Below the pieces are notes generated by a model. That model saw nothing but the letters and a program-made list of their open reading frames with translations. It did not search any database and had not been told where the DNA came from. From the NCBI GenBank assembly GCA_026874595.1, contig CM049314.1, positions 72,120,300 through 72,184,299 on the forward strand: a DNA stretch of 64,000 nt. The letters are read 5' to 3'. The stretch is from Sipunculus nudus. Lineage: Eukaryota; Annelida; Sipuncula; Golfingiida; Sipunculidae. Both the position numbers and the translations under genes were made by a program. This document shows, piece after piece, positions 2,140 to 50,647 of this stretch (position 1 is the stretch's first letter; each line of letters opens with the position of its first letter).

Positions 2140-2213
2140 TATTTATGACCCTAAAGGTCAGGCTAACGTCAACCGTCCACTTCCTCTTCCGCTTATCGGC
2201 CATACTGGTGCGT
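2140..2213 (+). promoter_or_regulatory. Probable RPL8 promoter and 5'-TOP leader exon
   Basis: A pyrimidine run starting with C (CTTCCTCTTCCGC, from about 2180) is followed by about 15 nt and a good donor (CTG|gtgcgt at 2208). An AT-rich TATTTATGA element lies about 35 bp upstream. Ribosomal protein genes typically start inside such a 5'-TOP tract and have a tiny non-coding first exon. The RPL8 ATG sits 10 nt after a splice acceptor at 4411-4412, so an upstream leader exon must exist. This is the best candidate found, but it is inference; a 5' RACE or RNA-seq start site would decide it. Confidence 0.4.
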
Positions 2214-3740
2214 AAGGATTCTTGAAAACACGATATGAATCCGGCTAAATCTACCACTAATGCTTGTCATCATAGGTTCACTGTGAAACATAACATGACA
2301 TTTGATTCATATATTCTTAATGTGCACATATTGTAACTGTATCATTGCTAGGTTTAAGTATATTTAACGTGTCTGTCCCCATGATACCTCTGGAACTGTA
2401 CCCACAACACGTTACCGGTGGGACACGAAATGGATAGAGTGGGATTCCACGAGCTTCCCCAGGGGAATACAAAGCAGCAGAAATCATAGAGGTTAAGCGA
2501 AAATTTGAAACTTTTATGCAGCCCTTACACGGTTAAGATTTGTGAAAAATAAAAGCATATCTTCTGGTGCCAAGTAATTGCGGGGTTCGGAATTTTAAAA
2601 GTGTGTGTCATCTTTGTCTTCGACTTCATGACATAAAAAAATAAAGTTAAACCAATCGGGGGGAAAAATCAAAACTCTGCTGTCGAGCAGGTAAAATGTG
2701 AATAAGAATGTGAATAAGGTTTTACGTAACCTTGTGGTGATTTAATTATTTTTAACTATATCAACCAAACTTGTCGATTACCCCCAACTTCATCTACAGG
2801 TACAACTATAGTATAAGCAGCCAGTGTAATAGCCCTATTTAATGTGACTCAATATTATGTGTCTGCAATATAAGTCTCAGACTACACACCACCCAGTGCC
2901 CTTGTCATCAGTGTCAACAGGTGTTTATTACCCTGTGCCAGTGCATCACATCGGAGCTGGGCCCGTTGAAACAAAATTTAACCAAATCGGGCTGTCAGTC
3001 GATCTGAGTCGGCAAGGCCGCTATTGAGGTCTGTAAACGGGCCCATTTGACTGTTTTCTGTCCCTACTAAACTTGCTGACATGCCTCTTATAAAAAAAAA
3101 GTCTGTTAATGTTTAAAAATGATCCAAGTTTAATTGTAGTTACTATTGAAACCATGTAATCCTTGTTATGCCTTGTTGTTTGGCAGTAAACAAGCAGGCA
3201 AAGAAGATGCAACGGATCTGTTGCCTGTTCCATGGGTTATATTGTAGAAACTCTCACTGTATGGCTATCGGACTCAATATATGGCAGGGCCTAATAATAG
3301 AGTCGATTAAATTGGGCTACCAGTATAAATGCTATTATTAAAGCCATTTATTAAAGGTGAGCTCCAGCAATCATGATTGACTGTTCCATTTATTAGGTGC
3401 ATATGAAACCCAAGTAGACCAGTGTTGGCAATATGCTGGACTAAGGCTTGATATCTAAATTTGACTCTTAGTTTTAAATCATCCTGAGAAGTTTTTAAAG
3501 CCAAACTATTTGAGTGATTCTGGTCTTTTATGGGCATGGAAGTGAAGTTGTGCTTGGTGCACAACGTGAGATAGTTGCATAAACTTGAAGATTAGATGTA
3601 TAAATGACCATCCGTGTTGAAGTTGAAGTTTGTACTCGTTCCAATAGCTTTAAAGTTTAGTATTGAATCAGATTTAAGAGTCTCATATTTTATTTCTATT
3701 TTTTGCATATTTATTTGAAACACGAATCAAGCACTCCATC

Positions 3741-3817
3741 ATTGTCATGATGAACTACATCCCCCTGAAATTCATTGAGGAAATTTTATGGGAATCCTCT
3801 AAGAAGTTCTGAACAAT
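3741..3817 (+). ncRNA. C/D-box snoRNA in RPL8 intron 1 (18S guide, pair A)
   Basis: C box ATGATGA is at 3747, a D'-like CTGA at 3765 and D box CTGA at 3809. A perfect 5-bp terminal stem (attgt 3741-3745 with acaat 3813-3817) brings C and D together. The guide directly upstream of D is CCTCTAAGAAGTT, complementary to the conserved 18S rRNA segment AACTTCTTAGAGG. The D+5 rule points to methylation of the second U in AACUU. From memory this is the region served by vertebrate SNORD61; that assignment is unverified. The sequence lies in the non-coding first intron, about 0.6 kb before the ATG exon. Confidence 0.8.
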
Positions 3818-4422
3818 AGGAGTCTGATTAACATATTTGTCAGGTAGCAAAAGGATTGAGTTTATTTACATATGCACCTCTACATGCAGTTTTCCTATTA
3901 AATTAAAGGTTGTATTCGGCTCCCTCAGTTTGACTTTTTTGACTCGGTAAATAGGTCAATGGCATAAGACCTTTAACTTTGAGGAACTGGGATATCACCT
4001 TTTATGCACTATCTGTTTTATAAGATGCATGGAAATGTATATGGACTGAAACCCATTTGGATCCTACCCATATGTCCTACAGAATAATTAACAACAACAT
4101 GTAACAACATCAAGACACTATTTTGTACTAAATGGAATTCCCAGTTTTTCCTGCGGGAACTTGAAACGTAACCGTTTTAATAATGAAAAAAAAATCAATT
4201 TACTTGCATATTTAATTGTATGTAGACTAGTTTCCATATATATGTAATGTATGCATTTTTGTTTGGTCAAACTTCCAATGTTTTGTGATTTGTTATTGTA
4301 AATGTAGCTGTGATATCTTGGAATATTTTGTCTAGATAACCGTGGTCAGTTGAAATAAGCCTCAGTGGTGACATTTGATGAATAAATCATTTAATTTTGA
4401 TATTTTTTCCAGAAAGACCACC

Positions 4423-7400
4423 ATGGGTCGAGTAATCAGGAGCCAGCGTAAAGGCCCTGGGAGTGTGTTCAAAGCTCACACCAAAAACCGCAAAGGGGCA
4501 GCCAAGCTCCGTGCATTTGATTTTGCCGAGCGACATGGCTACATCAAGGGTGTCATCAGGGTGAGTGTATCTGTCATGTTACGCCAATAATAGTTCTATA
4601 AACTGAATTAAACAGAATATACATGGTTGTGAAAGTGAATTGTTAATTTTTTGCCTATGAATATCATATTGAATGTATGATTAGTAGTGTTGGGAGTCAC
4701 CTCCTTGGCCATAATGGATCATGGACAGCATATCAACTAGCAGTTATGATGAACTTTGAAGGTCTGAGTTTCTCAATGAAGAAACATCGAATTGTCCTCT
4801 AAGAAGTTCTGAACACTTCTAATAATGTAAAGCCACATATTAAAGTGTTATATGTTGTATGTAAGGCAGCAACAACAAAAAATTGTACAGCCAAGAGATT
4901 TGACACTAGCAAGGTTTTCTTGGTAATATAACTGGTCCTTTTGTATATATGGCAGTGATGTAGGCAGGGCCAACAATGATAGGGACCTTGAAATCTGATA
5001 CCAATACCATAAGATTCCAGACCAGAATGGAATTACTCGAGACAGTGACCTAGATTTTATATATTTATCCAGCTGACATCAGGGTTGCAACTTAATTATT
5101 CCAGAGCCAGTGTCCCCATAAATATCAGTGAAGCCATGATCAAATGGTTTGTGAGCATTATATCATTACGGAACCAGGTCAAACAAACAATCGGTGTGGA
5201 CATATAACCTCTTTTCAATCAGGAATGCATCTTCAAACAGAGAGAAAATGATGTGTAAGCGTTGTTACATCAGTCATACTGTGTATCCTTCTGTAATTTG
5301 AGGGGCCTGGTCAGAAAAAGTGTTATTCCCCTCACAGGATGCTGACTTCTGGACAGATTTATTTTTCCTAATTCCCTAAATGGGGACTGCCATTTTGCGT
5401 GGAAACTAAAACTCAGATGTCACAGTTGGCATGTCTTATTTATCTGTACTGCTAGTATTCATAAAACTGGATTTCTGTTTAGTTTTGAAATCAAGAATAG
5501 AGTAGGGAACTGATATCATCAACTTGAGACACTGAAAATAATTTCTGCCACCAAGACTTGAGTCCCACAAGAAATGTTCCCACAATGCCTCGAGACCAAA
5601 ACTGGTCTTAAGATCTACATCACTGCTTTATAGCTTATTGGTTTGACACAGAGGTACCAGTATTAACTTCCTTTAGTTCAATAAAGATTTGTGTTTGATC
5701 CTCCATAAATCAGCAATTATCGGATGTAAAAGACAAGCATACATGTAATATTTTTTCTATACTTAATTACAATTGCTATGTCTGAACTCTGAGATGCTGA
5801 ACAGCTGTTGATGTGTTGGTATATTTATGACAGGACATCATCCACGATCCAGGCCGTGGTGCACCATTGGCCAAAGTAGTGTTCAGGGATCCTTACCGTT
5901 ACAAGATGAGGACTGAGACATTCATCGCTGCTGAGGGCATGTACACTGGGCAGTTTGTCTACTGTGGAAAAAAAGGTATCTATAATTGTCATATCTCTTC
6001 TTATTTTAGTCATGTATTCCAGTTGAAGTGGCATCCCTTGCATGTACTCAGTCATTCAAATTAACCCAGAAGGTGTTATTGATTAAATTCTGGTTAGGCT
6101 CAATTTAAAATATAGTACATCTAATTCTTCCCTTCTAAAAGTGAATTTTCAAAAAATAAATTAAAAAAAATAATGAACTTTTTAGCACTGTGCCAGATTA
6201 AAATATGTACATGTTTTACAGTCTAATATAAATACAAATGAAATTTTTGAATTATTTTTTAAAGCCTCGAAAGGTTACTGAATTTTAAACATCTTGTGGA
6301 GTTATTTAAATGACCCTTTTGTCTCTGACGCTATAGGAGAATGTCTTTATCCCCAGACTTTTACTAAATGATTTGTATTTCAAAAGCTGAATGTTGACAC
6401 AAATCACCAGTCACCAGAACATATCAGAAATTTTAATTTGCCATCTAGACTTGAGCAGTTTATTGTTAAATTGTATATGTAGCATTCACCTTGTGGGATG
6501 TGCAGGTCTTTCATGATTGCTACTGAAAACCCCTTTAGTATGCATATAGATTAACTGACAGCGTGTCTGGTAAAAAAGACTCCTCAGTCTGCCATGATGC
6601 TACAAAAATTTCTTCACTTTGACCTGAATGGTTCATGTGGACAAATGTTTTTAAATACTGAGCAGACACTACAGTGAGCAAGACTGGAAGTGGTGACCTT
6701 GTATTTCTCAAGTGGAGATGTATGATTTTAATGAAAATCTTAGAGATATTGTCAAATATAATATCTCCATTCATCTCTTGGCAAAATCCACACATTTGAT
6801 AAGGTCAGAGGTCACCAGTAAATGGCTCAGCTGTGATGAAAGATGAAAAATCTTATGGATTTTCTTGAAACTCGCTATATATATTAACCAGTCGAGTGTC
6901 TTGAATTAATAATAATTCAGTTATCGGGAAAATGCACACACATTAAATGTGGTCAGAGGTCACCAGGCTTCTTTGAGGTACTTCTGTGGTAAATAGGAAT
7001 CTTGACTGGTTTTGATGGTATTCAGTATAAATATGTTACCGTTAAAGTAACTGCTCCTATGTCCATTTATCTGCAGAATATGTGCATATTGAAAAGTTCA
7101 AATGTCACACAAAGTAATCTCTTTGTTATTTTCAGCCACCCTCCAGGTAGGAAACATCATGCCGGTAGGAACCATGCCCGAGGGAACCATCGTGTGTTGT
7201 CTCGAGGAGAAGACCGGAGACCGTGGACGTATTGCCCGTGCCTCCGGAGGTTACGCCACAGTGATCGCCCACAACCACGACACAAAGAAAACAAGGGTCA
7301 AGCTCCCATCTGGCACCAAGAAAACTATCCCATCAGCCAACAGGGCTGTTGTAGGTCAGTGAAAACTCTTTATTTCTGTTTTGCGAGTTCAATCCATTGT

Positions 7401-10400
7401 AGTCTAAATGTTAAACCCCTGTCTGCTGTGATGTAGAAAAATTTCTTCACTTTGACCTGAAGTTTTATGTGGACAAATATTCACAATGTACTGAGCAGAT
7501 TGGGAGAAATAGGATTTGCTGGTTGTGCAATTGAACATACTAATATAGTAAAAGTAGAAAATAATTTTTTTTTTGCTCATTGCTCTTTCATCCTCATTTT
7601 TAGCTCAGCTGACTTTCAGTCATGCTGGGCTATAGTGATGGGTCTTTGTCCGGCGTCCCTCCGTCTGTCCGTCCGGCCGTCTGTCCGTTAGCAGGGCACA
7701 AATCGTAACCGTAGGGGCTAGGGCCATGAACCCTATGCAGTCTAAGAGGTTATAAAAAGATCTTAAAAAAAGAAGTTATGGGGTGTGTTTGCACCCCCCA
7801 GAAATAACTCTTTGAGACAAAATTTTCATCCCAAACCTTCCATCTTTCACATACAGCTCATCTACCAACAGGGGAAGAACCATAATTTTTTTTAGGTTCA
7901 AAGGTCAAGGTCACAGGAGCCTCTTCTTTGAAAAGCCTGTGGATGCATTTCAAGCCAACCCTTTCATCCCAATTCTTTGATCTTTCACATATAGCTCACC
8001 TACTAAGTTGGAGAAGAATCCTATAGATTTTGAGGTCACAAGGTCAAAGGTCAGGGTCACAGGATCCACTTCTTTGAAAAGGTAGTGGACACATTTCAAG
8101 CTAGACTTTTCATTCCAAACCTTCCAGCACTGATATCGCTTCTCTGCCAACAGGGGAAAAGACCTGTTGATTTTGAGGTCAAAGGTCAAGTTCACAGCAC
8201 CCACTTCTTGCGTGGAGTCATTTTCAGGCAAACTTTTCAATCTGTACCTTCCATCTGTCATATATGGCTTACCTACCAATAAGGAAAGAAGCCTATTGAT
8301 GTTGAGGTCAAAAAATCAAAGGTCAAGGTCACAATATTTTATTGTTCTAAATGCTTGTGAGCATATTTCAAGTGTAACTGTTTAACCCAAACCTTCAGTC
8401 TTTCACATATGCCACATCTATGCATCACTCAGTTTGACTCAAACTTCATATTTATGGGTCTTTTTGCTTGAATAAATAACTTATTGATTTTGGGGTCAGC
8501 TGGTCAGCAGGTTAAAGGTTGCAGGTCAGAGTTATTCACCCATTGGTTGCCAAGTAATTACACCAGATTTAAGTGGTCAGTAGTTACCCATCATTTAGAA
8601 AGAATCCAGTTGATATATGGGCAAAAGGCCAAGGTCATAGGTCAGGGATGTTCACAATTACTTATTTTATAGACCATCTCTATTTTTCTTGTATATATAA
8701 CCATCCCACTCCAGCTGTTACATCTCCCTGTGTGGCTGTAATTGTGAGTGACACTGGTGACATATGACTCCCTTTTGTACCAGCCTATTAAGTGATAAGG
8801 CTCAGTGATAAGTACCTCGTTACTTCATAACAAAAACACTGTTGTCAGAATGCTTCAGCCAGGCATTAAGACTATGAGAGTATAGTACTAAGGTTTAGCT
8901 ACTGATTTATAAGATGATGGGAACATTTTGCAGTTTATTTTATGGAATCCTAGCAATAAACTTAGTTTCCTAGATATCTGAATATTTTAATATATATCAC
9001 CACATATAAAAGCAAGTGTTTGTTCTCATAATATGTGGATGTGAACCTTGATTTAGGATGGCTTTTTGTTTTATTTCAAGACTCTTAGTCATGCTTTCTG
9101 CATTTCTTTTCTTTCAGGTTTGGCAGTTTACCTACCCTGCTGACCCCATTCAAAAGCAGAGTGATAATAAAAATATTGGACTTACACTTTTTACAATTGC
9201 ATATCTATAAATCTTATATGAGGGCCTGGACATGCCTTTTGAATTATTTTGGGCATTTATTACTGGATAATTTGCCCCAAGTTTGGTCTCTTATTGGAGA
9301 ATGTGGGATATCAAATGTCATACTTGTCAGAAATCCATTATGTCTGCCATTTAGCCACCTTAGAAATTCTTTCTTCAGGGCAGTTTCAGTAATTTTTCTT
9401 TAATGTTTGGTCCGATTTAGAGAATGTTTGTTGTCTGATTTCAGACTTGTCAGAAGTCCAATATGGCCACCAGGCAACCATCTTTTAATTCCTTTTGATC
9501 ATATTATCTCAAGAACAGTTAAAGTGAATGCAGTTGGATGTATATTTATGTAATTTTGTAAAGGATTGGGTCAAATATTTCTGAATAAATATTACCATCA
9601 TTTATAAAAGTGCAGTACAGTTGGCTTGTATTGAATAAAAATTCATACAGAAGCACCTGTTTCTCAATAATTCTTGCATGTATTTCCTTGATTTTTGCTA
9701 TATATTTTGATCTTATATTTGCCCTTTGTGGTGTTCCTTTGAGACTGACAGGTTTCAAGCAAGCTGTTGGAATAGTTCCTGATAGCTTAACAATCATGCA
9801 TTTTCCTCAGACCATCAATTCATCAATTCTTCAAAATTTGACTGGAAGTTGTGAATCTCAGTCCATGATGTCACAGGTCATGCTTGGCAGCTGAGCGTCA
9901 TGACCCATGGGTCACTTGTTAAGATCTCCCCTATAAATATTTAATTTTTTCCAGAACTGATTTGATTTGATTTGAATTCTTTTATTTAGGGGGGGGAGGG
10001 GGGAAAGCAACATTATAATTAAAGAAAATGTGATTGCAGGAATCGTTGCCGGTGGTGGCCGTATTGACAAACCACTGCTGAAAGCAGGACGTGCCTACCA
10101 CAAGTACAAGGCCAAGAGGAACTGCTGGCCTAAAGTCCGTGGTGTGGCTATGAACGTAAGTGTCCCCAACCTCTTAATTTATACCATAACTTCCTTTCAA
10201 GTAATGCACATGTGAAATTAACCTTTCAAACTATCACAAGTTCATTTTGCAGAATTCCCACTTTGATGATAAACAAGTTTGAAATTTTATTGGCACATGA
10301 TTTCTAAAAGCCAGGTTAAAAAATGATAGGCTTCATTTAACAGTAAGCACATTAAGTTTATAGAAGAGGGCTTTATGATGAGACTGAAGTATCTGATCTC

Positions 10401-12362
10401 TGTGATAGATGTATTAACTTCAGAGGCTGTTTCTGAAAGCCCTAGCAAGCTTTTACTTACATAGTGATGCAAATTTATATCCTAAAGCTCTTAAAAAACA
10501 AATTTGCTGCCCCAGAAAAAAAAATTATTTCTGTATGTATGTAATTATTACATGTTAAAAAGATGAGTTACGGTATGCTAAAAAGCAGTAAAGCTGAATC
10601 TTGTATATGTCATAAAAGCATGAACCTGGTGCCCTGAAAAATTTGAAATTGCAGATTGACATATAAACACATACCAGTATTTAACTTGTATGCCAACTTT
10701 TGTTTGGATGTACGGTTGATATATTTATATTGTTATAAAAGTCTGATCATATACATGGCAATCATGAATTCAGTGTTGGTTAATCATATCCATTTCTTGT
10801 TGTTTACAGCCTGTTGAGCATCCTCATGGTGGTGGTAACCATCAGCATATTGGTAAAGCATCCACTGTCAGAAGAGATACTTCTGCAGGTAGAAAGGTAA
10901 GATATCACACATGTTTCTACACCAAACCATTTTCCTTACATGATCAAATGTATTGTGTCACCACGACTCAACTGTTTGCCACTGTGACATTTGAATCAAC
11001 CTTTTCATTAAGGATATATAATTTATAAATCAATCTTTTAGTTTGTCATAGCATTATCAGATGTAGCTAATTCAGAGACATGTTCAGGAAGCAGTATTTG
11101 AAAACCCTAACAGATAAATATAAAGCTGATTATATTAGGTTATCTTGAATTTTTATTGCTTTTCTCTGTATTGCTTGTTTAGTAACCTTGATAAATATGA
11201 TATGACGATAAAGGAACAAAAAAGGTTGACCATTTGAACTGCTTACAGTTTAGGAAATCACTGCCGCCTATATATAAATGGAAAAGCTGCCTGTGCCTTT
11301 TGGAAGGGAGATGACTGATAAACAGGGTTGAAATGATGATGACTGGAGTACCTGAGTTTAATGAGGATCTCATACTTCAGAGGCTGTTTCTGAACACCCT
11401 GCTTTCATGATCTCATTCTATTAATGACATAGAATTGTTTAGGAACTGGTCGGTTTACCATGGTTTAATTCTAAAATTGCTATTCACGTATGACTGTTAT
11501 ATTAGAGATTGAAAATTTTATAATTAAAGTTGCTGTGAAACCTAGATGGCTAAGTGGTTATAGTATAAGACTGGAAACTCCTTCCCAGCTAATCCACTCA
11601 TTTCAAGCATGACATATATTTGCAAGTCTCACTCGTGATGCTTAAGGCTTGCCTTATTAGGTATAACCATAAGTCCATAACTTACTTGCATTACCAAAAT
11701 ACACAAACTCAACTGGTAACAACTAATTCACTCGACTTCAATAGTTAATCACTTTCCAAGGGCAAGTAAAAGTTCCTGGAAATTTTGGTATGGCAACTAA
11801 GTTGCATCTAGTTGCCTCACTGGGCCAGTTGGTCCAACATACTCAACTAAGGGTCTGAATTATAACTTCTCTTCTTATCTTCGGCTAACCATTTTCTTTC
11901 CTGGAGAAAAAAAGTCATATTGCTAACACCACTCTACCTTAAGTTACGAGCATATATGTATGAACATATACTTAAGGGAAATTGAATGAACAACAAACAG
12001 TTGAATATATTGTCTATCATGCAGTAAAATGGGCAAAAAAAATCATATTGAACATTATTTATGGAGTGATCTTGTAAGGCAAGTGAAACTTAATGTAGGG
12101 GAGGTAATTTATTGATGTCAGGCAAGAACTTTCAAAAGGGTGTCTGACCCTTGATTGGCTGTGACTGGAACTTCCATTGTCACTTAATTTTTAGACATAC
12201 AGACTTCCTAAATGTATTCGACAAACCATGTTACATGTATTAAAAAAACATGCTGACTAATGTTGTTTGTTGCATTGACAGGTTGGTCTGATTGCTGCCC
12301 GCCGTACTGGTCGTCTCCGTGGTACAAAACAACTGACAGGAAAGGCTGCCGAAAAGGAATAA
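4423..12362 (+). CDS. RPL8: Ribosomal protein L8 (uL2), six coding exons
   Basis: This is a large-subunit cytoplasmic ribosomal protein that binds 28S rRNA next to the peptidyl-transferase centre. Coding exons are 4423-4560, 5834-5975, 7136-7354, 10040-10155, 10810-10896 and 12282-12362. All junctions are GT/AG and the phases agree. The joined frame is 783 nt, 260 residues, against about 257 in vertebrates. The start is [11 protein letters not shown] in a strong context (ACCATGG), 10 nt after an acceptor. Family hallmarks are [19 protein letters not shown], the ARASGGYA segment, and [16 protein letters not shown] with the conserved histidine at residue 216, which is a hydroxylation site in the human protein. 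The C-terminus ends [17 protein letters not shown] poly(A) signal AATAAA is at 12386. No break is seen. Each intron carries one C/D snoRNA-like sequence, and intron 4 also carries a 2.3-kb mobile element. Confidence 0.98.
4740..4818 (+). ncRNA. C/D-box snoRNA in RPL8 intron 2 (18S guide, pair A paralog)
   Basis: C box ATGATGA is at 4746, D' CTGA at 4764 and D box CTGA at 4809. It has the same 13-nt D guide, CCTCTAAGAAGTT, as the intron 1 copy, but a different D'-side sequence and a weaker terminal stem. The same 18S target is predicted. It is most simply a duplicate of the intron 1 snoRNA moved to the neighbouring intron. Confidence 0.75.
6587..6667 (+). ncRNA. C/D-box snoRNA in RPL8 intron 3 (28S guide, pair B)
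   Basis: A perfect 6-bp terminal stem gtctgc/gcagac encloses a C-like box ATGATGC (6594) and a D box CTGA (6658). A D' CTGA lies at 6624. The sequence just upstream of D' contains AATTTCTTCACTTTGAC, complementary over 17 nt to the highly conserved 28S segment GTCAAAGTGAAGAAATT. The D'+5 rule points to the second A of GUCAAAG. The last base of the C box departs from the RUGAUGA consensus. Confidence 0.8.
7422..7499 (+). ncRNA. C/D-box snoRNA in RPL8 intron 4 (28S guide, pair B paralog)
   Basis: The terminal stem is tctgc/gcaga, the C-like box GTGATGT (7428), D' CTGA at 7457 and D box CTGA at 7491. The D' guide AATTTCTTCACTTTGAC is identical to that of the intron 3 copy, so the same 28S nucleotide is predicted. 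The sequence lies about 70 bp after exon 4 and just upstream of the mobile element that enlarged this intron. The C box is the most degenerate of the six, so activity is less certain. Confidence 0.7.
7601..9918 (+). mobile_element. Non-autonomous element copy 1, in RPL8 intron 4
   Basis: It starts TAGCTCAGCTGAC inside a T-tract and ends CAGCTGAGCGTCATGACCCATGGGTCACTTG. GCTCAGCTG near the start recurs inverted near the end, and a perfect 14-bp palindrome TGACCCATGGGTCA precedes the terminal CTTG. A (GTCC)n-like run follows the 5' end, then ~140-bp modules rich in AGGTCA. No coding capacity is seen. It is about 97-98% identical to 19554-21991, whose flanks differ, so the element moved as a unit. 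Short subterminal inverted repeats, a 3' palindrome and insertion in T-runs suggest a Helentron/Helitron2-related non-autonomous family. That classification is inference. Confidence 0.8.
10367..10443 (+). ncRNA. C/D-box snoRNA in RPL8 intron 5 (pair C)
   Basis: The 7-8 bp terminal stem (agggctt with aagccct) is the strongest of the set. C box ATGATGA is at 10375 and D box CTGA at 10433. The D guide ends ACTTCAGAGGCTGTTT. Its complement begins AAACAGCCTCTG, which I recognise from memory as a conserved 28S core segment. The D+5 rule points to the A in AAACA. The rRNA match should be checked against the species' own 28S. Confidence 0.8.
11323..11401 (+). ncRNA. C/D-box snoRNA in RPL8 intron 6 (pair C paralog)
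   Basis: The stem is caggg/ccctg. The C box is within ATGATGATGA (11333-11342), a D' CTGA is at 11352 and the D box CTGA at 11390. The 16-nt D guide ACTTCAGAGGCTGTTT is identical to that of the intron 5 copy; other parts have diverged. The same 28S target is predicted. Confidence 0.78.
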
Positions 12363-19553: not shown

Positions 19554-21991
19554 TAGCTCAGCTGACTTTCAGTCATGCTGGGCTATAGCGATGGGTCTTT
19601 GTCCGTCGTCCTTCCGTCTGTCCGGCCGTCCGGCCGGCCGGCCGTCCGTTAGCAGGGCACAAATCCTAACCGTAGTGGCTAGGGCCATGAACCCTATGCA
19701 GTCTTAGAGAATATAAAAAGATCTCCTTGCAAACCTGAAATTAGGTCACTGCGACCTATATTCTCGAAGTTATGGGGTGTGTTTGCACCCCCCAGAAATA
19801 ACTCTTCGAGACAAAATTTTCATCCCAAACCTTCCATCTTTCACAGACAGCTCAACTACCAACAGGGGAAGAACCATAATTTTTTTGAGGTCAAAAGGTC
19901 AAAGGTCAAGGTCACAGGAGCCTCTTCTTTGAAAAGCCTGTGGATGCATTTTAAGCCAACCCTTTCATCCCAATTCTTTGATTTTTCACCTATAGCTCAC
20001 CTACTAAGTTGGAGAAGAATCCTAAAGATTTTGAGGTCACAAGGTCAAAGGTCAGGGTCACAGGATCCACTTCTTTGAAAAGGTTGTGGACACATTTCAA
20101 GCTAGACTTTTCATTCCAAACCTTCCAGCACTGATATCGCTTCTCTGCCAACAGGGGAAAAGACCTGTTGATTTTGAGGTCAAAGGTCATGTTCACAGCA
20201 CCCACTTCTTGCGTGGAGTCATTTTCAGGCAAACTTTTCAATCTGTACCTTCCATCTGTCATATATGGCTTACCTACCAATAAGGGAAGAAGCCTATTGA
20301 TGTTGAGGCCAAAAAGTCAAAGGTCAAGGTCACAATATTTTATTGTTCTAAATGCTTGTGAGCATATTTCAAGTGTAACTGTTCAACCCAAACCTTCAGT
20401 CTTTCACATATGCCACATCTATGCATCACTCAGTTTGACTCAAACTTCATATTTATGGGTCTTTTTGCTTGAATAAATAACTTATTGATTTTGGGGTCAG
20501 CTGGTCAGCAGGTTAAAGGTTGCAGGTCAAAGTTATTCACCCATTGGTTGCCAAGTAATTACACCAGATTTAAGTGGTTAGTAGTTACCCATCATTTAGA
20601 AAGAATCCAGTTGATATATGGGCAAAAGGCCAAGGTCATAGGTCAGGGATGTTCACAATTACTTATTTTATAGACTATCTCTATTTTTCTTGTATATATA
20701 ACCATCCCACTCCAGCTGGTACATCTCCCTGTGTGGCTGTAATTGTGAGTGACACTGGTGACATATGACTCCCTTTTGTATCAGCCTATTAAGTGATAAG
20801 GCTCAGTGATAAGTACCTCGTTACTTCATAAAAAAAACACTGTTGTCAGAATGCTTCAGCCAGGCATTAAGACTATGAGAGTATAGTATTAGTGTTTAGC
20901 TACTGATTTATAAGATGATGGGAACATTTTGCAGTTTATTTTATGGAATCCTAGCAATTAACTTAGTTTCCTAGATATCTGAATATTTTAATATATATCA
21001 CCACATATAAAAGCAAGTGTTTGTTCTCATAATATGTGGATGTGTACCTTGATTTAGGATGGCTTTTTGTTTTATTTCAAGACTCTTAGTCATGCTTTCT
21101 GCATTTCTTTTCTTTCAGGTTTGGCAGTTTACCTACCCTGCTGACCCCATTCAAAAGCAGAGTGATAATAAAAATATTGGACTTACACTTTTTACAATTG
21201 CATATCTATAAATCTTATATGAGGGCCTGGACATGCCTTTTGAATTATTTTGGGCATTTATTACTGGATAATTTGCCCCAAGTTTGGTCTCTTATTGGAG
21301 AATGTGGGATATCAAATGTCATACTTGTCAGAAATCCATTATGTCTGCCATTTAGCCACCTTAGAAATTCTTTCTTCAGGGCAGTTTCAGTAATTTTTCT
21401 TTAATGTTTGGTCCGATTTAGAGAATGTTTGTTGTCTGATTTCAGACTTGTCAGAAGTCCAATATGGCCACCAGGCAACCATCTTTTAATTCCTTTTTAT
21501 CATATTATCTCAAGAACAGTTGAAGTGAATGCAGTTGGATGTATATTTATGTAATCTTGTAAAGGATTGGGTCAAATATTTCTGAATAAATATTACCATC
21601 ATTTATAAAAGTGCAGTACAGTTGGCTTGTATTGAATAAAAATTCATAAAGAAGCACCTGTTTCTCAATAATTCTTGCATGTATTTCCTTGATTTTTGCT
21701 ATATATTTTGATCTTATATTTGCCCTTTGTGGTGTTCCTTTTGAGACTGACAGGTTTCAAGCAAGCTGTTGGAATAGTTCCTAATAGCTTAACAATCATG
21801 CATTTTCCTCAGACCATCAATTCACTGTGTTTTAACCAGACATAGGTGATATATAATTCTGTTGTCATAGAAAATTTTCAACAAATTGGCCAATTGGTTC
21901 TTTAAAAAAATTGACTGGAAGTTGTGAATCTCAGTCCATGATGTCACAGGTCATGCTTGGCAGCTGAGCGTCATGACCCATGGGTCACTTG
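19554..21991 (+). mobile_element. Non-autonomous element copy 2, twin of the RPL8 intron element
   Basis: It is near-identical to 7601-9918 at a constant offset of 12,001 bp through most of its length. It keeps about 40 bp missing from copy 1 (near 19715-19760) and has an extra ~75 bp near 21826-21905. Ends are TAGCTCAGCTGAC and TGACCCATGGGTCACTTG. The flanks are unrelated to those of copy 1, which argues for transposition rather than segmental duplication. Small open frames inside are mirrored in copy 1 but show no sign of protein function. Confidence 0.85.
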
Positions 21992-26672: not shown

Positions 26673-29239
26673 CGCTGAACGTTATGTTGGTTTGTCCCAA
26701 AGTATACAAACTCATTGAAGTGGGCCACAACAATTGACCAAACTGTCATGCGCTTGGTTGGATCAGGATCAAAGCTGAAAGGGGGAAACATATCTTGAAA
26801 AGCAGGGTCACAATTCGCAGAAGAATCAAATAAGTCTGTTTCCATTGATATGCCGTACTAGTAGAGCAAGTAGCACCGACATATGAAATATGCCATACAG
26901 TTTAATATAAATCTGTACCTTAATAGAAAAAAAATTATTAAAGTCAAATAATAATAGGAACAAAAACGTGAGAGCTAACTTGAAGAAATTTAATCGTCCG
27001 CCTTCCTCTGCCAACTCCCACACTCGAGTAATACTTCCAACTTCAGTCACACCCTGATGATAAAAAAATAATAGATATAAGTCAATACAGGCGATTAATA
27101 TCCGTCCAGTGCATAATTAGGTAAATTATTTTATAATATTTTACTGCTTAGCTAGAAAGACCAAATGCTTAGGCGTTGTCGGCTTTAAATGTTGTTGCTA
27201 CTCAAATGTTTATTTGACTTGACTCACATTTTTTGTTGCTACACCATATACTGTCAGTTTATCCATGTAAGTTGAAGAGTGACCGGGACATAATCAGTTC
27301 ATAAATTTAATTGTGAACATACATGCATATACTGATATAGTTACCTAACCATATCAATTAAGAAACAATGCAGACAGGGGGTTCAAACATTTATCGAGCT
27401 CAGGATCCCTGCACAGGCTTTTATGCCTTTTAGAGATTTGGACGTTAAGAAATTTTATTTACATACCAGAACAGCTATAGCAATGAGCCCAAGTATCATA
27501 ACGGTACCCTGAAACATATCCGTCCAAACTACAGTTTCCATGCCGCCCTGTTAATGCATAGTCCATACATTAAAAACATGATTAGGTTATTTTCAGGGAA
27601 TCTGAGAACTAACATCAAAACTGTGGGACTTGTCCTATCTAGAATATACACTTTAATTCTGAAAGCAATATTTTAATTACTCATTGGTATTGTCGGGCAC
27701 GTTTGATTTATATTTATTGAAAAAGGAAGTAATAGCTATAAGTGAAAACATTAAGGTGTGATAATGGAACTATTTATCGGAAACATTAAACTCACGAGTG
27801 CTGTGTAGGCTATTGCCACTCCTGATATAACTAATATGTTAACCCATCTGGGATATCCAGTAACTGTGAGAAGAATAAAGAAGGACCTTAATTACAAACA
27901 ATATGGGAGTGATGTTTGTTTTGCCGCCTTATTGTTAAAGCAATTCAACATCAGTTTGATCCCATAGCAAAAGATTTACTATGCCTATATATTACATTTA
28001 ACTATTTAATTTTATAACAGTTGTCTTCGTTTAATTTTGTAAATTTGGTACTGATTAAAAAGGCCCAATTTCCAATACAACTGTTTGTATTTCCAGCTAA
28101 AATCAAATCAATTATTTTCATGTAAACATCAAGCGCGTACCTGCTTCGACCGAGGTACTTGGGATATATATGATTAACCCCATGTAGAAAATCTGGAAGA
28201 TATTTGGGAAAGATTTCCATCGTTATTTTACCGCTGAGGGCCAGGAGAAGGTTATACGTGAAAACAATGTAAGGAAATGGTATGCTTAAAATGTAAAGAG
28301 GAATTTTCTAAAAACTTAATAATTTCTTTTGTGTAAACAATTACGCAAAGCAACAATGATTAAACATGTTATGTCCTTTTTCTACATAAGCTTTTATAAA
28401 TACCTGGTACACAGATTGAAAGAAAACACAAAGCCTCCTCAGGTTGAGTGACTCGTACCTCAGGTACAGATACTAAAAATACAGATACGGAGAAATGCCA
28501 CATTAATTATTTATGAAACGTTTTCCGAATAATACATTGAATCAGCTGATGTCCTGTTTGGGGCAGAATACTGAGGAAAAAGATGTGGTTCTCATGGGCA
28601 AAGAAGTTAAAACATATATTCGTTCGTCACTTTAATGACAAAATAAAGCGATATTTGGTATTCTGGACTTTGTCAAATCGCTGGTTAAAATGACTGCCAG
28701 TCCAAGTGATATCATGCATGATTCATCAGCCATATGTATCCTTTTATACGTGGTTTTCATTATGGCAGTATGTACAAGAATATAAGACCAGTCTGTTGAT
28801 TTTTTTTTTAATTTTAAAGGAATGGATTGCTATGCTACAGTTGGTCGGAAACACCAAAATCAAGAGGGGCCTCAGTAGATAAAATACCGTATACAGTTTA
28901 CCTGGACGAAACTGGTGATTTTCAGGTGGTACAGCCGAGGGACGATTACCACGGCCGAGATCATATAATTGAAAGCGTTAGCAATAATTTCCATGTAAGT
29001 CTGGCTTCCATACAAGTAGAATTCTGTTGTTTGGCCAATAAGCGACAGAGCCGATAGGGTAGACATGGTCATCGACATGGCAGTCGGAAGGACCCACAGG
29101 TTCCGAATACCTGTGAAATACTCAGACGTGTTGTTCTTGCGATGCCCAGATGTGGAAAAATATAGACCAATTCCAGCGGAGAAGGCGAGCATCAACCCAA
29201 ACAGAATCCAGTCAACCCACCGAAACCGGTTTCATCCAT
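26673..29239 (-). CDS. Sodium-coupled solute transporter, SLC5/SSS family, N-terminal exons
   Basis: Seven minus-strand exons are 29239-28902, 28472-28404, 28307-28232, 27863-27796, 27547-27467, 27053-26980 and 26774-26673. From the second exon on, all GT/AG sites and phases agree. The protein resembles the SMCT/SLC5A8-like branch, a plasma-membrane Na+ symporter. Landmarks are VDWILFGLMLAFSAGIGLYF (TM1), EYFTGIRNLWVLPTAMS, TGYPRWVNILVISGVAIAYT, GGMETVVWTDMFQG, FDPDPTKR and GTNQHNVQR. About 269 residues are covered, under half of a ~600-residue transporter. Oddities: the only good ATG (29239, MDETGF) is one base out of frame with WVDWILF, as if one base were lost near 29221. After 25702 no further exons are recognised in the remaining minus-strand sequence. 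It may be a decaying gene, an assembly indel, or a gene with a 3' half I cannot see. Confidence 0.85.
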
Positions 29240-29269: not shown

Positions 29270-30440
29270 ATAATATTTACCCTAACCAATTACATCAGTC
29301 TTCCTTAGGAGGGTCACCGTGGTTGCTGACACCTGATCCAGCTAGCTGCTCTCTGATTTAATGTCATGCGTCACGTGATATTCCTTATAACAAGTAGCCC
29401 ATAGGATACACTCGGCTGAATTTGACATAAAGGCAATCCTTGAAATAATTATTAAAACAGCAGATAAAGATATTTTTGGGGGGATATTTGAGTTCGTGGA
29501 AAGTAATTACAAACATTTATAATTGGTGGTTTATAAATCTTTAGAGCTTATTATCGGTTAATGCATGGCCATCGCAATTGAGTTCCCATTGCAAGGACAA
29601 TAGTTTGAAACCTGTATACCTAGAAAAGATACATTTTTTGCATATTATTTTTACAACTGTCCGTCAGTGTAAGGGTTAACAGGAATAAATAAAAATTAAA
29701 TAACATTTATCTCTACATATTACTATTTTTACACCACCTGAAAACATTTAATACACAAATATCAGCAGGTCGTAGAATTCACTACCCATCCACGCAGTCT
29801 CCGAGGACGCTGCATGTCGTTTGGGTGCTGCCGTCACGTCACAGATGATGGAATAGTCAGCAAACTAACACCGTCACAGTCAGTTACCTATTGACATCAC
29901 AAAGAGCTTGGGCCGCAAGTGTCTAGATTTTCTAGATAATCTACGTCCCTGCCTTATGCACAGACAAATTACAGCCATTGGACTTAAGTTTAAATTAGGA
30001 GTACAAACAGGCACTGAAGGCGCTGAATGATAAGTTGCAGGTGTTGACTTATCTTGTTAAGCGTAAAGAGGAAAGTGTCCACGACATCTCTGTTGATTCG
30101 GCACTAGAGCAAGTGCAGGTGCAAACCGTTTGTCAGAAATTAAGCCTATTCGCGCTGCATTGGTGATATAGGTGCATCATAAGATATGCAATCGCTGCAG
30201 ATTGATCCAAGATAGGGACATCAAAGTTAGCATATTCGCGTGAAACTAGATTGGTCTTTTATGAACTAGACGTTTTGACGTTGGAATATATGTTTACTGA
30301 GTTTTTGCCAGATGCCAAAGAAAAGAATCGACGATCATATTGTTTTCATATTACTGTATTTTTAAGTTATTGTTGACAACGTATATATGTGCTTTACTGA
30401 ATCTGTGGGGTATATTTCAATACGGTATACCTATATATTT
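29270..30440. other. Intergenic, upstream of the SLC5-like gene
   Basis: It would contain the promoter or leader exon of the minus-strand transporter gene, but no convincing promoter element is seen. The ATG at 29239 follows a possible acceptor (cttcacag), so a 5' leader exon may lie here. Confidence 0.35.
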
Positions 30441-30449
30441 CTAAAGTAT

Positions 30450-31960
30450 ATATTTCTAACGTTTTGAAGCACTATCGGCCAATATCTAACCTTTTGTTCC
30501 TTACTAAAGTGTTAGAAAAGATCGTTGCCACTCGTATCACTTCATACATGAAGGAAAACCATTTGTATGAAGACCAACAGTCTGCATATAGACCTTTTCA
30601 TAGCACTGAAACATGCCTGCTCAAAGTATATAACGATCTTGTCTGGGCTATGGACTCCCAACAAGTATCCATTCTCATACTATTGGATTTATCTGCTGCC
30701 TTTGATGTAGTGGATCATCAGCTCCTGTTACAACGGTTGTCCACCAGGCTTGGAATAAGTGGAGATGCCTTGCAATGGATAAGGTCATACCTGTGCAATC
30801 GAAGTCAGTGTATCAGTGTTGCAGGTCATAAGTCTTCTCCAACTGAGATCACCTACGGTGTTCCACAAGGTTCTGTGCTGGGGCCTCTGTTTTTTACAAT
30901 TTACACATTACCACTTGGTGAATTAGTACGACAGCATGGAATGGATTATCATTTTTATGCTGATGACAGTCAAATTTATGTATCATTTAAACCAGAATCA
31001 AAGGTTCCTATTTCTACCATTGAAACATGCTTGCATGACATAGGTGTTTGGATGTGTCAGAATCTGCTTAAACTCAATGCTGATAAAACTGAGGTTCTGA
31101 TTATCGATACAAACCAGCAAAGGTCAAAAATTCAGTTGAAAACTCTTAATATATTTGACTCTGTAGTTGTGCCAACAAACTGTGCTAGGAACCTGGGGGT
31201 TGTTTTTGACCAAGGGCTTTGCCTTGATAAGCATGTAAATAATATTTGTAGTTTGGCTTTTTACCACCTGCGTAATATAGCTAGGATAAAGGGTTTCCTA
31301 ACTCAAGATTCACAAATAACATTAATTCATGCGTTCATCAGTTCAAGGATTGACTGTTACAACTCTTTGCTATGTGGTCTTCCTAGCAAGTTACTGGACC
31401 GGCTTCAGCGAGTGCAGAATGCAGCTGCTAGGCTTGTAACTGGTGCCAAGAAGCGCGACCACATTACACCTATATTTAAAGAACTCCATTGGCTCCCGGA
31501 GCGACAGCGCATTGATTTTAAAATTTTATTATTAGTATACAAAGCCATAAATGGTCAATCGCCTATTTACATTAGGAACCTCTTAACTTTTTATGTTCCA
31601 GTCAGGCAGCTTAGGTCATCTGACCAAGGGCTTTTAGTGATTCCTAAAGCACGAAGTGAGATGTGTCGTTCGAGAGCTTTCTCAGCTGTGGCACCAAGGT
31701 TGTGGAATGAACTTCCGCACTCAATCAGAGCTTCACCATCTTTAGCTTCATTTAGAAGAAATCTTAAAACTTACCTTTTTATATTAGCTTTTGGTAGTTC
31801 TTAGGAATTAGGGTTTAACTTTTAGGAATCTTTGTTTTAGTAGGAATCTACATTTTATGTTTTAGAAAGACTGTGCTTTGTGTCTTGTAAAGCGCTTTTG
31901 ATAACTATTTTGATTAATTAGCGCTATATAAATTAAATATATTAATATATTATTATAAGT
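30450..31960 (+). mobile_element. 5'-truncated CR1/L2-type LINE
   Basis: The element starts abruptly inside the reverse transcriptase and runs to a 3' UTR with the paired motif AAGCGCTTTTG ... TAGCGCTATATAAATTAAAT and an AT-rich microsatellite tail. That 3' end is characteristic of CR1/L2-like non-LTR retrotransposons. No endonuclease or ORF1 is present, which fits incomplete reverse transcription on insertion. The long unbroken frame indicates a fairly recent copy. Confidence 0.88.
30464..31804 (+). CDS. Non-LTR retrotransposon reverse transcriptase, 5'-truncated
   Basis: The frame is open for 446 codons without a stop. There is no true start: the first codon of the open stretch is TTG, and the protein begins in the finger region (HYRPISNLLFLTKVLE). 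RT motifs appear in order: motif A LLDLSAAFD (residues 73-81, catalytic Asp), motif B GVPQGSVLGP (132-141) and motif C FYADD (164-168). The C-terminal half carries HITPIFKELHWLP and RAFSAVAPRLWNELPHSIR, a domain shared by CR1/L2/jockey-like elements. Its enzyme would copy element RNA at the target site. This copy lacks the endonuclease, so it is unlikely to move on its own. Confidence 0.92.
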   Translation: MKHYRPISNLLFLTKVLEKIVATRITSYMKENHLYEDQQSAYRPFHSTETCLLKVYNDLVWAMDSQQVSILILLDLSAAFDVVDHQLLLQRLSTRLGISGDALQWIRSYLCNRSQCISVAGHKSSPTEITYGVPQGSVLGPLFFTIYTLPLGELVRQHGMDYHFYADDSQIYVSFKPESKVPISTIETCLHDIGVWMCQNLLKLNADKTEVLIIDTNQQRSKIQLKTLNIFDSVVVPTNCARNLGVVFDQGLCLDKHVNNICSLAFYHLRNIARIKGFLTQDSQITLIHAFISSRIDCYNSLLCGLPSKLLDRLQRVQNAAARLVTGAKKRDHITPIFKELHWLPERQRIDFKILLLVYKAINGQSPIYIRNLLTFYVPVRQLRSSDQGLLVIPKARSEMCRSRAFSAVAPRLWNELPHSIRASPSLASFRRNLKTYLFILAFGSS

Positions 31961-49908: not shown

Positions 49909-50568
49909 TCAGTGACCACTATCTGCGTTATCTGAAACTGAAAGGTTGTCCGCTTGTGTTATGTTCATTTCAAAGTCCGGATCCCTGGCATCCACGGACT
50001 CACGCAGGGCATCTCTAATTAAGTCAGCCTGTGCTGCTTCGTCAGACGAGGGCGCGTCCCCAGTAACGTCACCAATAACCACGCCTGAATCTATCCCGTG
50101 CGTTATCTTACCAAGCTGTTTGCATCTTATCTCTTTATCTTTACTGTGTTTCCAGTCTTTATATGCAATCTGGAAAGCTCTTGACATGAGTATGGCGAGG
50201 ATTTTGGTTTTATCACGACTTGAACATATTACAGCATGGCACTCGTACCCTTCTCTACCGGGGTTTTTGTAAATCCATGAAAACACTCGCTCGTGGTTGG
50301 GCACCTCACTGCTAAAATGTGATATGTTGTGAATGTCGAAAACGTGAATGTTTTTACCGTTACTGTCACTTAGATGGAGGCCGTTTGGATTAATCAAGAT
50401 ATCATATTTTGTCATTCTCCTTTCGTCTACAGAGTTGTCCCATAGCCTTTGAAACGGAAGTGACGCACACCCGGTCCCTTTTGGCGTGTATGTCTCTATC
50501 TTGCCCACATAGCGTACTCCAAACTGTGGGTCGCCGGGGGTTACATCCATTTTCTTCTTCGCAAACAT
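49909..50568 (-). CDS. PTB/PID-domain protein, FAM43-like, single exon
   Basis: An intact 219-residue frame starts MFAKKKMDVTPGDPQFGVRY and ends at TGA. Residues ~14-150 read as a phosphotyrosine-binding domain. VRYVGKIETYTPKGTGCASL is the first strand and helix region. KYDILINPNGLHL, then VFDIHNISHFSSEV, is the sheet core. VFSWIYKN followed by YECHAVICSSRDKTKILAIL is the Cys-His-Ala-Val strand and a start of the final helix, which continues SRAFQIAYKDWK. The spacing and the VFxWIY...CHAV order are closest, by memory, to FAM43 adaptors; other PTB adaptors are possible. The ~70-residue tail is acidic and looks disordered. A possible acceptor (tttctttctgttag) 16 nt before the ATG suggests a 5' UTR intron. 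PTB proteins bind NPxY-type peptides or lipids at membranes; the ligand here is unknown. Confidence 0.85.
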   Translation of the reverse strand: MFAKKKMDVTPGDPQFGVRYVGKIETYTPKGTGCASLPFQRLWDNSVDERRMTKYDILINPNGLHLSDSNGKNIHVFDIHNISHFSSEVPNHERVFSWIYKNPGREGYECHAVICSSRDKTKILAILMSRAFQIAYKDWKHSKDKEIRCKQLGKITHGIDSGVVIGDVTGDAPSSDEAAQADLIRDALRESVDARDPDFEMNITQADNLSVSDNADSGH

Positions 50569-50647
50569 GCTGATTCAAAAGTGCCTAACAGAAAGAAAGA
50601 ATGACAATAAATTGTTTGTACATCATATACTCAAAAATTAGTGAGAT

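Follow-up and report, generated by a model that had tools for sequence, protein, structure and literature searches.

Does every intron of the RPL8 gene of Sipunculus nudus carry a small nucleolar RNA (snoRNA), and did these elements spread by copying between neighbouring introns? We addressed this question in a window of 64,000 nucleotides (nt), the whole stretch of DNA that was analysed (GenBank assembly GCA_026874595.1, contig CM049314.1, positions 72,120,300–72,184,299, forward strand). We read RPL8 as a multi-snoRNA host with three cis-duplicated pairs of box C/D snoRNAs, and judge this reading to be correct with a probability of roughly 92%. Our analysis confirmed that all six introns, the first of which lies in an inferred 5′ untranslated region (UTR), carry a single box C/D snoRNA-like element each. 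This had been proposed in a first-pass annotation of the sequence, and is supported by the boxes in all six elements, by Rfam and alignment, and by genome-wide searches.

Six coding exons on the plus strand, joined over GT-AG introns, encode RPL8/uL2 of 260 amino acids (aa). The 260-aa protein matches eukaryotic RPL8/uL2 of solved ribosomes (best expectation value, E, 3.7e-195) as well as Pfam Ribosomal_L2_C, and can be aligned over its full length to other RPL8 proteins. A pyrimidine-rich stretch and a donor site near position 2180 fit a noncoding upstream exon, and given this putative exon the element at 3742–3818 falls inside intron 1. The gene is laid out as follows.

2180–2211, plus strand: putative 5′ UTR first exon of RPL8, from sequence only; pyrimidine-rich start CTTCCTCTTCC, donor 2208 or 2212
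4423–12362, plus strand: RPL8 coding region; exons 4423–4560, 5834–5975, 7136–7354, 10040–10155, 10810–10896 and 12282–12362
2208–4412, 4561–5833, 5976–7135, 7355–10039, 10156–10809 and 10897–12281, plus strand: RPL8 introns, including the inferred 5′ UTR intron

As the criterion for the box C/D class we took a C box (RUGAUGA) and a D box (CUGA) ∼60–70 nt apart; all six elements show this arrangement, but for the last C-box base in introns 3 and 4. A TGATG core, a guide and a CTGA D box are present in six of six, in agreement with the C or C-like boxes and CTGA D boxes that had been annotated.

3742–3818, plus strand: intron 1, SNORD61; C 3747–3753, D 3809–3812, guide TCCTCTAAGAAGTT; Rfam 50.4 bits
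4742–4817, plus strand: intron 2, SNORD61 copy; C 4746–4752, D 4809–4812; Rfam 56.5 bits
6588–6667, plus strand: intron 3, SNORD37-type; C 6594–6600, D′ 6624–6627, D 6658–6661, D′ guide ATTTCTTCACTTTGAC
7422–7500, plus strand: intron 4, SNORD37-type copy; C 7428–7434, D′ 7457–7460, D 7491–7494
10369–10442, plus strand: intron 5, SNORD95-guide snoRNA; C 10375–10381, D′ 10393–10396, D 10433–10436
11325–11399, plus strand: intron 6, SNORD95-guide copy; C 11333–11339, D′ 11352–11355, D 11390–11393

A strict C/D scan of the 64-kilobase (kb) window returned three matches on the plus strand and none on the minus strand; random 64-kb strands had 0.35 matches on average (20 first-order Markov runs). 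All three matches are RPL8 elements, namely those of introns 3, 4 and 5; the elements of introns 1, 2 and 6, with stems that fail the filter, escape the scan.

Judged from their letters, all three pairs carry known ribosomal RNA (rRNA) guides: SNORD61 in introns 1/2, the SNORD37 D′ guide in introns 3/4, and the SNORD95 D guide in introns 5/6. The first-pass annotation had matched two of these to conserved rRNA, and both indeed represent known families; the third, which it did not recognise, is a known guide as well. The covariance-model check that it had called for places introns 1 and 2 above the Rfam cut-off of 43 for SNORD61 (RF00270), and introns 3–6 below the cut-off of the family from which the guide is known. 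For introns 3 and 4 the assignment comes from the D′ guide AAUUCUUCACUUUGAC, which stands next to CUGA and in each case agrees with 19 of the 20 letters of the SNORD37 guide+D′ consensus. We predict that these two elements work like SNORD37, and refer to them as SNORD37-type. SNORD36 (RF00049) also covers intron 3, with 33.8 bits at a cut-off of 30, and this score was read as a cross-match because the SNORD36 guide overlaps that of SNORD37. In the alignment of intron 3, the SNORD36 guide AAUUUCUUCA is not directly 5′ of the D′ box, as six inserted letters intervene. SNORD36 was rejected as the identity of introns 3/4, since the D′ box is in the SNORD37 register.

The D guide CAGAGGCUGUUU of introns 5 and 6 likewise stands next to CUGA, and 16 of the 16 letters of CAGAGGCUGUUUCUGA are found in both. 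Over the longer SNORD95 guide+D consensus, intron 5 agrees in 19 and intron 6 in 18 of 21 letters; intron 6 also agrees in 17 of 18 letters with plant snoZ119, in which the SNORD95 D guide word occurs too. The base facing position 5 of the guide would be U for introns 1/2, and A for both introns 3/4 and introns 5/6. The predicted methylation sites are the U that faces position 5 in AACUUCUUAGAGG (18S), and the A that does so in each of GUCAAAGUGAAGAAAU and AACAGCCUCU (28S). Introns 5 and 6 also have similar D′ guides (GACTGRAGTAY; 10382–10392, GACTGAAGTAT, and 11341–11351, GACTGGAGTAC), two transitions apart. Provided that G-U pairs count, both could base-pair to a single target, and a second guide function is possible.

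How are the six elements related to each other? The longest words that two introns share on the same strand measure 21 nt (introns 1 and 2), 25 nt (3 and 4) and 21 nt (5 and 6), and none of the other 12 of the 15 intron pairs has a common word longer than 12 nt; opposite-strand words reach at most 15 nt and are of low complexity. The three adjacent duplicate pairs of the first-pass annotation thus are the only ones with a same-strand word above this length. When 1.5-kb blocks elsewhere in the window were compared, 20 of the 561 pairs likewise shared at least 21 nt, so that word length alone is no proof of homology and identity with known guides is decisive. Over whole elements, 53 of 80 columns are identical in introns 1/2, 67 of 81 in introns 3/4, and 57 of 77 in introns 5/6. 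Outside the identical core, identity amounts to 75% in pair 3/4 (z 8.8) and 66% in pair 5/6 (z 6.0), and to a weak 54% in pair 1/2 (z 2.2). Pair 3/4 looks the youngest or the most constrained, which is an order that we infer. The likeness ends at the snoRNA ends: six comparisons of 200-nt flanks gave z scores between -1.9 and 1.6, and what can be recognised today as the duplication unit is thus only the snoRNA itself. Duplication of an entire exon-intron segment was rejected, in view of the dissimilar 200-nt flanks and the collinearity of the RPL8 protein with other RPL8 proteins.

The guides were then sought in the complete assembly of 1.43 gigabases (Gb), where all counts from word searches are lower bounds. 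No exact copy of the RPL8 guides was found at a second site, nor an exact third copy of any of them. With RF00270 at E 0.001, two matches were obtained among 61 candidates scored, and both are in RPL8 introns 1/2. The 17-nt SNORD37 guide, with up to one mismatch, has at least 45 matches, of which two are exact (RPL8 introns 3/4); the number with one mismatch, at least 43, compares with 42 for a reversed control. Ten of these 43 loci were inspected and consist of one single match and a nine-copy tandem repeat, all on C1; none of the nine repeat copies has TGATG in the preceding 40 nt, and one (L033) is followed by CTGA. The 19-nt SNORD95 guide+D word, with up to two mismatches, has at least 34 matches: two are exact, both in RPL8, none has one mismatch, and at least 32 have two mismatches, versus 2 for the control. 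Seven of the 32 are one identical word, and TGATG was absent from the 75 nt upstream in all ten of the 32 two-mismatch loci that were inspected.

Taken together, these observations suggest how the system could operate, and from them we infer processing, expression, methylation and copying as follows. Each spliced and debranched RPL8 intron would be trimmed to one box C/D snoRNA, which would be protected by the C/D proteins. The snoRNAs would then guide fibrillarin for 2′-O-methylation of rRNA, at an 18S U (SNORD61), a 28S A (SNORD37) and a 28S A (SNORD95-type). Three founder snoRNAs would each have been copied alone into a neighbouring intron by cis-duplication; the boxes and the guide would have been kept in both copies, while the remainder and the flanking intron sequence diverged.

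Several observations weigh against this reading. The Rfam scores for SNORD37 (RF00440), 30.4 bits in intron 3 and 35.4 bits in intron 4 (E 0.00062), are below the cut-off of 45, and SNORD95 (RF00189) gives partial matches of 17.1 (intron 5) and 16.1 bits (intron 6) at a cut-off of 55. The best-scoring families of the last two introns are different ones, snoR160 for intron 5 (24.1 bits, cut-off 42) and sR1 for intron 6 (20.8 bits, cut-off 45); most of their matches below the cut-offs involve other C/D families, which we would read as a generic C/D resemblance. A search of the assembly with the SNORD37 model at E up to 10, a threshold at which 11 of 14 prokaryote control genomes also give matches, returned ten matches, none over the cut-off. 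Two of them are RPL8 introns 3/4, and the top match of the assembly lies outside RPL8 (L003, on C15), with 35.5 bits versus 35.4 bits for intron 4. The 14-nt SNORD37 guide word is absent from the six other SNORD37-scored loci of these ten that were examined. The match at L003 may be fortuitous, or represent a decayed copy. Our confidence was lowered slightly on account of L003 and of the families that outscore SNORD95 in introns 5/6.

The elements themselves also deviate from the expected form. The final base of the C box is off consensus in intron 3 (ATGATGC) and intron 4 (GTGATGT). Terminal stems, which the first-pass annotation had seen in all six, are strong in introns 3–6 (pairing of 12-nt flanks at -10.4, -15.5, -11.2 and -10.1 kcal/mol), and weak in intron 1 (-4.8 kcal/mol) and intron 2 (-3.0 kcal/mol), neither of which passes the 5% mark of -6.0 kcal/mol in 2000 random window pairs (1% mark, -8.3 kcal/mol). 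The SNORD61 consensus in Rfam has a terminal stem of only 2 base pairs (bp). In mammals, a distance of ∼70 nt from the snoRNA to the 3′ splice site is favoured; the RPL8 elements lie 364–2537 nt from theirs, and hence do not have the short mammal-like spacing. Finally, searches of the assembly for ribosomal DNA (rDNA) came back empty (two 18S words had no matches, and there was no exact antisense 28S match), so that rRNA complementarity rests on the known families. The 28S word was absent from the viral contigs scanned, and a scan of genome contigs hit a bacterial chromosome (L023), which we take for chance, as well as L024, which contains the 13-nt complement of the SNORD61 guide within a eukaryote-like 18S stretch at its end.

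Could one snoRNA of each pair be at work and the other be a decaying pseudocopy? The minimal terminal stem of intron 2, the aberrant C boxes of introns 3 and 4, and the strongly different bodies of introns 1 and 2 would agree with this. Against it, guide and D (or D′) box are identical over 21, 25 and 21 nt despite divergence elsewhere, which argues for selection on both copies, and a minimal stem is what the SNORD61 consensus itself has. We consider decay unlikely. Improbable to a similar degree is that the pairs did not come from neighbour copying in this lineage, being an older arrangement or separate arrivals from elsewhere in the genome (trans-duplication). This explanation benefits from the fact that a single species reveals neither the direction nor the age of copying, and from RPS8 of the same genome, in which one pair occupies non-adjacent introns (see below); it is opposed by the lack of an exact third guide copy in the assembly (as far as lower-bound counts tell), and by the placement of all three pairs in neighbours, one of 15 possible pairings. 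The same limit applies to the ‘clear evolutionary series’ that had been claimed for RPL8, of which duplication between neighbours stands and the direction and order of copying do not. Chance C/D-like hairpins, which the short boxes and the weak stand-alone Rfam scores of introns 5/6 might recall, were rejected as hardly credible given SNORD61 scores over the cut-off, known guides, duplicate pairs, confinement to the sense strand, and three strict-scan matches versus 0.35 expected per strand.

We therefore return to RPL8 as a host of three cis-duplicated pairs, and ask how it compares with known systems. Copying of a snoRNA into a neighbouring intron is a named process, cis-duplication (excerpts of PMC2653536 and PMC3412847), and in chicken, adjacent introns are described as the place where most novel snoRNA paralogs (∼18%) arise (excerpt of PMC2653536). 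The closest precedent in these excerpts is chicken RPS8, for which snoRNAs are listed in introns 1–5: intron 1 holds U39/U55, introns 2 and 3 both hold U40/U46, and introns 4 and 5 both hold U38 (PMC2653536). Like RPL8 here, it is a ribosomal protein gene with adjacent duplicate pairs; unlike RPL8, it encodes another protein, has other guides, and carries an unpaired snoRNA in intron 1. In sponges of the genus Suberites, four snoRNAs were duplicated into neighbouring introns, with nematodes and platypus also cited (excerpt of PMC3412847). The RPL13A case among them resembles RPL8 in that a snoRNA of a ribosomal protein gene was cis-duplicated into the intron next to it, and differs in that it concerns one pair of the H/ACA class. 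In Drosophila, 27 cytoplasmic ribosomal protein genes are described as snoRNA hosts (excerpt of PMC2246290).

The three guides themselves are found in chicken SNORD61, SNORD37 and SNORD95 (12 nt 3′, 17 nt 5′ and 13 nt 3′, respectively), hosted by RBMX, EEF2 and GNB2L1 (excerpt of PMC2653536). Guides, guide side (D, D′ and D) and target letters (18S U, 28S A and 28S A) are the same as in the RPL8 set; there they are listed as single copies in three hosts, whereas here they are gathered in RPL8 and doubled. Neither RPL8 as a snoRNA host, nor its combination with SNORD61/37/95, nor a survey of mollusc snoRNA hosts was met in the open-licence PMC literature searched (subscription papers and snoRNA databases lie outside this scope). 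This agrees with the earlier view that RPL8 is not a known host. The novelty of the arrangement itself had been overstated, given chicken RPS8 (as excerpted from PMC2653536) and a similar RPS8 in the genome studied here.

This RPS8 gene (L041, on G000:C5, 4454–7396), chosen as the sole comparator on account of the chicken precedent and thus not a base rate, has four successive introns that carry a single C/D snoRNA-like element each, and the exons between them were recognised by eye as RPS8. The elements were found at a permissive Rfam threshold, and all score below their family cut-offs.

L041 4454–4558 and 7293–7396: RPS8 SNORD46-like; Rfam 28.6 and 23.1 bits, cut-off 40
L041 5236–5311: RPS8 SNORD96-/Me28S-Am982-like; SNORD96 35.6 bits (cut-off 43), Am982 36.0 bits (cut-off 49)
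L041 6252–6326: RPS8 SNORD96-like; Rfam 25.2 bits

Their order, SNORD46, SNORD96-like, SNORD96-like, SNORD46, forms a nested pair of pairs, with 94 of 105 identical columns between the SNORD46-like and 62 of 84 between the SNORD96-like copies. RPS8 thus resembles RPL8 in having an element per intron and two duplicate pairs, and differs in that only the SNORD96-like pair is adjacent, flanked by the SNORD46-like pair. No snoRNA match was seen in the RPS8 stretch upstream of the first exon, and the strict C/D scan misses both SNORD46-like elements. RPS8 hints that paired full occupancy may be a rule for ribosomal protein genes of this genome. A more far-reaching suggestion, which we hold tentatively and would sooner bet against than on, is that in this lineage RPL8 is the only genomic source of the three deeply conserved guides, with two functional copies of each in adjacent introns, and that doubling is habitual in ribosomal protein hosts here, RPS8 included, perhaps matching guide dose to ribosomal protein output.

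In sum of its parts, the RPL8 arrangement is a tidy case of a host-gene pattern known from other ribosomal protein genes, and does not establish a new class of system. With it, RPL8 would join the snoRNA hosts, and three conserved guides that reside in three separate genes in chicken would come together in one ribosomal protein gene. Its three natural pairs of differing apparent divergence would offer material for the study of snoRNA copying between introns.

Further observations concern sequences beside these elements. The L003 locus (∼1510–1560) lacks the exact guide; by eye, it has a near guide and CTGA boxes, and no TGATG C box was seen. L024 is a GTDB bacterial metagenome-assembled genome contig that starts (1–100) with a eukaryotic 18S-like stretch fused to other sequence, an apparent chimera. 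Within intron 4, 3′ of its snoRNA, window positions 7811–8420 contain a degenerate internal repeat with copies of 39–111 nt, ∼60–80% alike, spaced near 130–146 nt or double that; frames in 19683–20476 resemble it by eye, which suggests a dispersed repeat. Elsewhere in the window, a 467-aa open frame (30401–31804, plus strand) resembles, by eye, a non-long-terminal-repeat (non-LTR) reverse transcriptase; two minus-strand frames, judged in the same way, recall an exon of an SLC5-type transporter (28872–29231) and one with a PTB/PID domain (49909–50574).

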